Below are positions 1-30,518 of a DNA stretch of 39,362 nt, in pieces; position 1 is the stretch's first letter; every line of letters starts with the position of its first letter. Position numbers and translations under genes: made by a program. Under the pieces are notes generated by a model that worked only from the letters and a program-made list of their open reading frames with translations, made no database searches and was not told the origin of the DNA. Source of the DNA: an uncultured Pseudomonadota bacterium (GTDB taxonomy: Bacteria; Pseudomonadota; Alphaproteobacteria; RUG11792); contig CACYBM010000039.1 in the NCBI GenBank assembly GCA_902772645.1, positions 1 through 39,362 on the forward strand, read 5' to 3'.

Positions 1-481
1 AATCATGTAATATTAATATTATAACTGCAATTACTGCTTCAATTCTATGTTCTTGCTCTTTATAATATATTAAATATTTAAAAGATACACATGAAGTAAT
101 AAATGAACCAACTGTTCCTAATACTAACCCTGATAATGTTTTATTATTTATTATGCTTTGGAAAAATTTAGGACCACCTATTAATTTATCTCCTAAATAT
201 GACAATACTCTGTAACTCCATATTATACTGAAATACCATATTGTTACACTACTACCATATGGTGGAAATATTATACACCATAAGAATAACTGAGGCATTA
301 TATAGAAAGTAAGAAAACTCAACAGTGCATGATTATTCTTACTTATCCTAAACCATTCTATTAATGATAATATAAATAAAATCAAAAACAGTACTGGATA
401 TAGTATATAATAATCAGTTATTAATACAAGAGATATTATAAAGTTAAATAATATGCTACTTAATGTTTTGTTGTCAAACAT
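1..481 (-). CDS. CdsA-like membrane protein, degenerate paralog (3' end outside window)
   Basis: The frame is open for 160 codons from the ATG at 481 to the window edge, with a TAA five codons upstream of that ATG. The product is hydrophobic with several membrane spans. It aligns along its length with the intact CdsA at 26441-27073: the start (MFDNKTLSSIL versus MLNNSLTRSIS), then LIEWFRISKNNHALLSF versus LIEWFNINKNKNTLLFY, then KLIGGPKF, which is identical in both. The conserved CdsA segment WSCDTFAYIGG has become WSYRVLSYLGD, losing the acidic residue, and SPNKTWSG has become INNKTLSG. CdsA makes CDP-diacylglycerol from CTP and phosphatidate in the inner membrane; this copy probably cannot. 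The C-terminal signature lies outside the window. It sits head-to-tail with a second such paralog. Homology is seen directly; loss of activity is inferred. Confidence 0.8.
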   Translation of the reverse strand, partial: MFDNKTLSSILFNFIISLVLITDYYILYPVLFLILFILSLIEWFRISKNNHALLSFLTFYIMPQLFLWCIIFPPYGSSVTIWYFSIIWSYRVLSYLGDKLIGGPKFFQSIINNKTLSGLVLGTVGSFITSCVSFKYLIYYKEQEHRIEAVIAVIILILHD

Positions 482-535
482 ATACAGTATGAATTAGTTT
501 AATACATCTTTTATTGTAATATATCTTTGTAAAAA

Positions 536-1192
536 CTATATTAATTTTAGTATAACTACGTATATTATATAAACATAGCTAATAAATAAGAAACTATTTG
601 CAATCTTTATTATAATACCATGAGTTGGCATTATACTTTCAGTAGTTGATAATTCTTTTATATAATTATTTTCTGATAATGGTTTTATCCTAGTTAACAT
701 AAAATCACTAATCAATAACATTATAGTAAATGATAGTGTAACACTTGTGCAGTATAACAATTGAAAATTATCATTATTTAAAAATTTTAAGTATAAATAA
801 AAATATATAACAATAAAAGCAGTTATTACATTTATTATTCGTTTCAATAAAATTCTATTAATTTTTATTTGTAAGCCATCTATAATTTTAAAGAATACGA
901 ACGATATAATATCGTATAACAGTATCATTCTAAAAAATAATATAGATATTTCCTCCTGTTTTGTTATGTACCAATATATCATCGGAATAATTATATATAG
1001 TATGCCAATATAAAATATTAATGATTTTTTATTTGTTTTATTAGCTGCAATCCATCCTATTAACATTGAAAATAATGCCATTACCATATATATGTTGTAT
1101 GTATTATCTGAAAAATAATCAATATATATCGTTATTCCAATAAACAAGATAGATACCATTACATTAATAAATTTTTTTATAAATTTGTTCAT
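536..1192 (-). CDS. CdsA-like membrane protein, catalytic signature lost
   Basis: This is a 218-residue multi-spanning membrane protein with a clear, distant resemblance to the intact CdsA at 26441-27073. The middle matches as SLIFYIGILYIIIPMIYW versus TLLFYCGTLYISFPILYL. The C terminus matches as SIMPTHGIIIKIANSFLF versus NIIPGHGGVLDRFDSFLL, and both end in a YIIY-rich hydrophobic tail. The CdsA family signature K-R-x4-K-D-x8-H-G-G-x2-D-R-x-D, complete in the intact gene, is gone: KR and KD are absent, HGG is HGI, and DRFD is KIAN. The GGPKF and SPNKTW segments are also lost. Length is normal for the family and the frame is intact, so the gene has probably been kept for a non-catalytic role or is an early pseudogene. 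It precedes the partial paralog at 1-481 by 54 bp on the same strand. Confidence 0.8.
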   Translation of the reverse strand: MNKFIKKFINVMVSILFIGITIYIDYFSDNTYNIYMVMALFSMLIGWIAANKTNKKSLIFYIGILYIIIPMIYWYITKQEEISILFFRMILLYDIISFVFFKIIDGLQIKINRILLKRIINVITAFIVIYFYLYLKFLNNDNFQLLYCTSVTLSFTIMLLISDFMLTRIKPLSENNYIKELSTTESIMPTHGIIIKIANSFLFISYVYIIYVVILKLI

Positions 1193-26440: not shown

Positions 26441-27073
26441 TCAATTAATCCAAATATATATAATGTAAATATAAGTAGTTAACAGAAAACTATCAAATCT
26501 ATCAAGTACACCTCCGTGACCAGGAATAATATTTCCTGTATCCTTTACTCCAAGTATTCTTTTAACTTTTGATTCAATTAGGTCTCCTAGTATTGATGAT
26601 ATTACAAATAATGGAATGAACCATAATATTAACATTGATTCATGCAGTACAGGCCATACATATCTCAAATATAAAAACGACATAATAAATGATGCTATAC
26701 ATCCACATATTACTCCTGACCAGGTTTTATTAGGGCTTATTTTGGGACTAAATTTCGGCCCTCCTATTAATTTCCCTCCAATATATGCAAATGTGTCGCA
26801 GCTCCATACTATGCTGAAAAGAAATAATATACTAGCACTATGAAAAAACTGTGATTTTATTAAATATAGTATTGGAAAGCTTATATATAATGTTCCACAA
26901 TAAAATAACAGTGTATTCTTATTTTTATTTATGTTAAACCATTCTATTAACATTAATACCAGTAATATAGAAAACAATATTTTGTAAAAGTAATTAAATT
27001 TTATTAATAGGAATACTACAGTGCCTCCTAGTAATACACTACTTATACTTCTTGTTAAAGAGTTATTTAACAT
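26441..27073 (-). CDS. cdsA: Phosphatidate cytidylyltransferase (CDP-diglyceride synthase)
   Basis: This integral inner-membrane enzyme condenses CTP with phosphatidate to give CDP-diacylglycerol, the precursor of phosphatidylglycerol and phosphatidylethanolamine. The protein has several hydrophobic spans, the conserved SIVWSCDTFAYIGGKLIGGP and SPNKTWSG segments, and a complete C-terminal signature: SKVKRILGVKD followed by IPGHGGVLDRFDS. I chose the ATG at 27073 (210 residues) because the family starts MLxxxLTR and the paralog at 1-481 aligns from this Met; an ATG at 27133 would add 20 residues. This is evidently the functional copy. Two degenerate relatives lie at 1-481 and 536-1192, about 25 kb away on the same strand. 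Confidence 0.93.
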   Translation of the reverse strand: MLNNSLTRSISSVLLGGTVVFLLIKFNYFYKILFSILLVLMLIEWFNINKNKNTLLFYCGTLYISFPILYLIKSQFFHSASILFLFSIVWSCDTFAYIGGKLIGGPKFSPKISPNKTWSGVICGCIASFIMSFLYLRYVWPVLHESMLILWFIPLFVISSILGDLIESKVKRILGVKDTGNIIPGHGGVLDRFDSFLLTTYIYIIYIWIN

Positions 27074-27239
27074 AGTTTTATCAATAAAACTACATATATA
27101 TATTATATTAATTAACAACACATTTTTAAACAAAATAATATAATAAAATTCGTATTCCCAAATAATATGATATAAACCCAGTATATACCAAATAAATATA
27201 TACTAAGCACTAATAATACATTATTTATATTTATCTGTT

Positions 27240-27551
27240 TCAGGTATTATATGTGAAATTTATTGGATCATTGTTTAATAATGTTTTATTGATTACATTA
27301 GCTTCTTGGAATGTACTAGCATGGTTATTCTGTATTTGTTTTATATATTAATTATCATTGTTATATTGATTTAATAAATTATTGTTCTTACTCATTAATT
27401 GCTTAGACAATGTATTATGTCATTAGGAATTGTTGCAATAAAGATCTAGCAAATTTGTATTATCCAAATTGATTTGTGTCTTATTGTCCCTTGTATTACC
27501 ATAAGAAATCCAAATAACTACTGGTAACAAGATTTTATAAATCTTTAACAT
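27240..27551 (-). pseudogene. Decayed secreted-protein gene, paralog of 30090-30518
   Basis: The ATG at 27551 opens a frame with a signal-like start (MLKIYKILLPVVIWISYGNT) that stops at TAA 27423-27425 after 42 codons. A second frame continues with LSKQLMSKNNNLLNQYNNDN, is cut by TAA, and continues with QNNHASTFQEANVINKTLLN to TGA at 27240-27242. The leader matches the gene at 30090 (MLRIYKLLLPIVICTTGVNS), and the match includes the untranslated leader TACTTTTTATTAAAGGA. The two genes are in opposite orientation on either side of lepA. Confidence 0.65.
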
Positions 27552-27752
27552 TAATTCCTTTAATAAAAAGTATTACTATTAATACAATAATACGATATAC
27601 CATTTGTTACCTAAAAATCAATAGGTTTTTCTGGAATTTTATAGTTTACAGTAACAATGTTACTTTATGTTATGGGCTTTTTTCTTTTCGTAAAATACTA
27701 ACTTCAATGTTATCCTATATATGAAAGATAGATACAGAATATCAAATATAAA

Positions 27753-30089: not shown

Positions 30090-30518
30090 ATGTTAAGAAT
30101 TTATAAACTCTTGTTACCAATAGTTATATGCACTACTGGTGTAAATAGTATGGTTTGGCAGGATAATAATGATATCAATAGTAATTATGAGAGTTTGTTG
30201 CACAGTGATGAAGATTCTACACCGTCCTATTTACGTAATTACAATGAATCAGACTTAAATAAAATTGACAATATTATTAATCCACCTATTGCTTTAATAC
30301 CACAACAAGATGGAAATTTAAAAAATAATACAAATAACGTCATATCAACTAATTTAATACCAGATAATAATATTAACATTAATAATAATATTTTTAATAA
30401 TGAAATACAAATCAATAATGACATAAACAATAATAAAATAAACAATAATAAAACTTTCTTAAATAAGAAAAGATTTAATGATAAAAATATTAAATTTAGT
30501 AAAATTAGTTTACACTAA
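30090..30518 (+). CDS. Secreted Asn-rich protein, possibly frameshifted at its 3' end
   Basis: The ATG at 30090 follows a good ribosome binding site (AAAGGAG). The 142-residue product has a signal peptide (MLRIYKLLLPIVICTTGVNS), then an acidic region (HSDEDSTPSYLRN) and an Asn/Ile/Lys-rich low-complexity tail. A second frame from 30478 overlaps its end and carries a more structured, Cys-containing sequence, so one indel may have split an originally 210-residue protein. It shares its leader and 5' untranslated sequence with the decayed gene at 27240-27551. Function is unknown; it is probably exported. Confidence 0.6.
   Translation: MLRIYKLLLPIVICTTGVNSMVWQDNNDINSNYESLLHSDEDSTPSYLRNYNESDLNKIDNIINPPIALIPQQDGNLKNNTNNVISTNLIPDNNININNNIFNNEIQINNDINNNKINNNKTFLNKKRFNDKNIKFSKISLH

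Follow-up and report, generated by a model that had tools for sequence, protein, structure and literature searches.

Two adjacent CdsA-like genes that lack the CDP-diacylglycerol synthase active site are candidate pseudoenzymes in a 1-Mb bacterial genome

The window, by which we mean the whole stretch of 39,362 nucleotides that was analysed, is contig C39 of a 1-Mb genome assembled in 59 contigs, and it begins at the first base of that contig. The closest named relatives, in a comparison by CdsA, were Holosporales MAGs. Two CdsA-like genes, here called A and B, lie at the left end of the window, and an intact paralog lies farther along it. The features are as follows.

1-87, strand none: repeat that matches the start of contig C47 exactly and is common to a broken copy of A, called A' (sequence identity)
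1-481, minus strand: gene A, putative CdsA-like membrane pseudoenzyme, residues 1 to 160 (open to the contig edge; contig overlap; HMM; ortholog)
536-1192, minus strand: gene B, putative CdsA-like membrane pseudoenzyme, 218 aa (open frame; HMM; sister ortholog; neutrality rejected)
26441-27073, minus strand: cdsA, intact, the catalytic paralog, 210 aa (Pfam CTP_transf_1, 161.8 bits)

CdsA stands at a gateway to phospholipid synthesis in bacteria; its product, CDP-diacylglycerol, is a building block of membrane lipids. The cdsA gene listed above was the single intact match in the whole genome, and all 21 of 21 invariant residues were present. In some family members, placed in genus g3, CdsA is longer, at about 335 aa (L132 1603-2610), versus 210 aa in this genome. 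Upstream of cdsA, positions 27140-27560 on the minus strand are ridden with stops and resemble, by eye only, the start of an exported protein at 30090-30518 on the plus strand. The first-pass annotation had described two open CdsA-like frames on the minus strand, B of 218 residues and A of at least 160; both were found to be open, A over 160 aa as far as the end of the contig. The two genes are co-oriented, with a spacing of approximately 55 bp here and approximately 40 bp in the sister genome considered below; adjacent and co-oriented as they are, they are probably expressed together. Scanned for promoters, the leftmost 2 kb of the window gave a site count not above that of shuffled sequences.

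Because the window begins at a contig end, gene A is incomplete there. Bases 1 to 73 match the termini of contigs C22 and C23 exactly (73 bp), bases 1 to 87 are identical to the start of C47, and the assembly broke at the window start on the repeat common to A and A'. Contig C22 carries A on to a stop, which gives a joined protein of about 215 aa, some 55 aa beyond the window; in this part PGHGG is deleted and D194 is replaced by G. The sole alternative continuation found for A was C23, where the PGHGG deletion was present too, and the loss of PGHGG in A is therefore independent of contig pairing. Our pairing of C39 with C22 rests on the intactness of the two pieces of the gene and is not proved by the assembly itself; C22 most likely holds the remainder of A. 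A mobile element had been suspected of cutting A short, as the similarity to CdsA stops near the repeat, but this was rejected when the rest of A was found on the contigs beyond. The next gene after A was rlmN-like on C22 and gspE-like on C23, and in the sister genome a DNA glycosylase (tag-like) gene lies beyond A (all three names read from translations). The earlier suggestion that the array may continue past the left edge is rejected in view of these non-CdsA genes next to the end of A.

Both genes aligned to the intact CdsA along their length. In pairwise BLASTP, A was 42% identical to it over 135 aa (E 2e-24) and B 30% identical over 204 aa (E 2e-13). Gene A scored above the cut-off for Pfam CTP_transf_1 (25.6 bits) and B scored below it. 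A lineage-specific CdsA-family HMM was then built from 41 sequences, with shuffled sequences as controls. In this genome A reached 103.0 bits in the joined reading (best shuffle, 5.1) and B reached 61.2 bits (best shuffle, -0.7); across the two species the scores were 103 and 89 bits for A and 61 and 36 bits for B, and the best shuffles did not exceed 13 for A and lay near 0 for B. By these alignments and profile scores, A and B are real CdsA homologs, and the family membership claimed for them at first sight is upheld for both copies in both species. An AlphaFold model of B from a 25-sequence alignment had a pLDDT of 82, and 187 of its residues were matched to TmCdsA (4q2g) at a Z score of 10.7, the next, unrelated row scoring 7.2; the input alignment included CdsA, and this predicted likeness is hence not independent of the sequence comparison. 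The single-sequence model of B was poor (pLDDT 56), a Foldseek search with the B model by itself gave no significant match, and a PDB sequence search with a B-like profile gave no match.

CDP-diacylglycerol synthases (CDS) are marked by the signature KDx5PGHGGx2DRxD, and in TmCdsA the metal-binding Asp dyad is D219/D249 (PMC7018664). Mapped by spacing, Asp219 and Asp249 correspond to D164 and D194 of the CdsA of this genome. In neither A nor B does the signature survive, DRxD being lost in both, and the Asp dyad is broken: the second Asp (D194) is G in A and N or H in B, and the first is D or E in A and D or N in B. Gene B has PTHGI for PGHGG (PTRGI in the sister genome), KP for KR, NY for KD and KI..N for DR.D, together with a four-residue gap at the position of GGPKF. 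Gene A has D93 changed to R, NNKTL for PNKTW and PGHGG deleted. The losses shared by the two species are PGHGG, D194G, R192N, G100D and R172Q in A and D194N/H, R192I, D191K, R172P, G100F and W118L/F in B, and neither gene retains D194, R192, R172, S168, G100 or G188. Of the 21 invariant CdsA columns, 9 and 7 were kept by A in the two species and 7 and 7 by B. The residue losses that the first-pass annotation had read from the sequence were thus confirmed by alignment, and A and B, as judged from their sequences, are without a CDP-diacylglycerol synthase active site. Since several of the losses are common to both species, catalysis was most likely lost before the species separated.

The second species is represented by sister genome G001, the only second genome of the genus compared, so that the pair is known from two species. 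On its contig C17, B and A are adjacent as they are here, and neighbouring genes of the window lie mostly on other G001 contigs; the B-A pair has been kept together despite differing surroundings. The B ortholog is 43% identical and open, with no stops in either species. The A ortholog is 61% identical over 213 codons and has one apparent frameshift. This single interruption lies at L125 9295-9301 (G001:C17), and its two frames overlap.

Under a codon model, omega for A was approximately 0.2 (0.12 to 0.3 within 1.2 lnL units), and omega of 1 was worse by 17.8; for B, omega was at most 0.12 within 3 units, a value to be taken as an upper bound because synonymous sites are saturated, and omega of 1 was worse by 28.1. 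For comparison, omega for cdsA was approximately 0.03. In a simulation of neutral evolution to the observed divergence, each copy of B accumulated about 8 stops and each copy of A 4.4, and none of 500 runs left both copies open. Since neutrality is rejected for both genes and many stops would be expected under drift, A and B are most likely pseudoenzymes of the CdsA family, ancient and specific to the genus, rather than fresh debris. With orthologs of both in the sister species and omega of 1 rejected for each in the dN/dS comparison, the earlier suggestion that the copies are retained gains support: both have been kept across species under purifying selection after catalytic loss, as pseudoenzymes are, with the caveat that the sister A is frameshifted. 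The accompanying statement that the frames had stayed open holds in full for B only: the sister species has A with one frameshift, and the additional copies A' and C are both broken. We consider that A and B have probably been retained for a non-catalytic function.

The further copies indicate that decay forms part of the story, along with the frameshift in the sister A. The second copy of A in this genome, A' (C23 and C47; L127, L129), is interrupted by a stop toward the C terminus, and its differences from A are spread evenly across codon positions (9, 8 and 7). In the sister genome a truncated B-like ORF, C, lies directly upstream of cdsA (L126 4483-4980, G001:C49) and scored 24.8 bits against a B profile, where the highest of 500 shuffled controls reached 4.3. 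Beyond C on the same contig are psd-like and DedA-like genes on the opposite strand (names from translations). The main rival explanation, which we judge rather unlikely, is accordingly slow decay: A and B would have been functional after the species split, perhaps would still be so in one species, and would now be on their way to loss, like A' and C. Besides the broken copies and the single frameshift, the rates bear on it in both directions. The A branch is longer in the sister genome (0.55 versus 0.22), and B evolves fast, its branches of 1.4 versus 0.3 for CdsA amounting to an approximately 5-fold faster divergence; however, the end branch of A in this genome is no longer than that of CdsA (0.22 versus 0.30), B is open in both species at 43% protein identity where drift would give the stops noted above, and omega of 1 is rejected for both genes.

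In the tree, A and B were sisters (97/91) and grouped, with less than firm support (80/94), with the CdsA of their own genus; the tree program warned that two long branches meet, and the sisterhood of A and B is therefore provisional. None of the 33 other genomes of the family that were searched clearly showed an additional, dead CdsA, the extra matches being mostly pieces of a single CdsA frame. The exceptions were G029, with a partial CdsA-like frame at a contig end downstream of a uppS-like gene, and G006, G015 and G026, with weak CdsA-matching fragments. Gene conversion between cdsA and B was rejected, as a species-specific excess of identity was absent.

We propose that A and B are products of a cdsA duplication, which most likely took place in the ancestor of the genus, that both ceased to work as CDP-diacylglycerol synthases before the two known species split, and that purifying selection has kept them as membrane pseudoenzymes. 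They would most likely act through the CdsA-type helices that they retain, by pairing between themselves or with the intact CdsA, and this pairing would stabilise or regulate CDP-diacylglycerol synthesis instead of catalysing it. For this reading as a whole, that of duplicated genes dead before the split, kept by selection and acting as membrane pseudoenzyme partners, we put the probability at roughly 0.5; protein expression, partner and role are inferred. CdsA is a dimer (PMC7018664), and the specific partner proposal, that of pairing between A and B or with CdsA, drawn by analogy, is tentative, as is the first-pass suggestion of lipid-binding scaffolds. Coincidence of the CdsA residues kept by A and B was not above chance (Fisher p 0.48), so that no shared A/B interface is visible. 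That an operon of two dead, genus-specific CdsA paralogs assembles with and controls the sole CDP-diacylglycerol synthase of a reduced endosymbiont is a more doubtful extension of the same idea.

A different outcome, somewhat less probable than slow decay, is that A, B or both have been neofunctionalised outside the CdsA complex, as lipid- or nucleotide-lipid-binding proteins or with a different enzyme chemistry. Gene B keeps a P.HG segment, in which the sister genome has R for H, and its conservation between the species is highest over the C-terminal 30 positions (67%); the IGG...NKT.SG loop is partly kept in A; against this, few residues are kept (7 to 9 of 21 invariant), and the two sequences per gene are too few to judge any new invariant charged motif. 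That A and B jointly form one composite CDP-diacylglycerol synthase, each giving part of the site, is highly improbable: A is richer in CdsA residues at 91-125 and B at 53-75 and 181-210, but this complementary retention is not significant and was rejected by the same Fisher test (p 0.48), the six residues lost from both genes could be supplied by neither, and the genome already has an intact CdsA.

To return to the preferred reading, in which A and B are selected pseudoenzyme partners, a preserved dead CdsA pair in a small, host-associated bacterium suggests a non-enzymatic job in the membrane. If functional, the pair would amount to a lipid-synthesis pseudoenzyme embedded in the membrane of a bacterium whose 1-Mb genome is otherwise losing genes, and it would give a way to ask how host-dependent bacteria set their supply of CDP-diacylglycerol. 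Among the open-access papers searched we found no description of a CdsA pseudoenzyme or of a regulatory layer of the A-B type on phospholipid synthesis.

Among known systems, A and B resemble CdsA itself (PF01148; TmCdsA 4q2e/4q2g) in sequence family, length and helix order, and may resemble it in predicted fold; unlike CdsA, they are without the active-site dyad, the PGHGG-x2-DR-x-D signature and KR, and B is also without KD. Escherichia coli YnbB is likewise a second CdsA-family gene besides CdsA, but this paralog is listed as a CDS enzyme (PMC7018664), whereas A and B lack the signature. Two reports describe dead paralogs that bind and activate an active partner, namely the trypanosome AdoMetDC prozyme (PMC5201418) and the dead paralog of trypanosomatid DHS (PMC3663545). 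The likeness is that of a dead copy kept alongside an active one in the same genome; partner binding was measured for the prozyme and DHS systems, whereas for A and B, which are two dead membrane paralogs, it is a candidate property.
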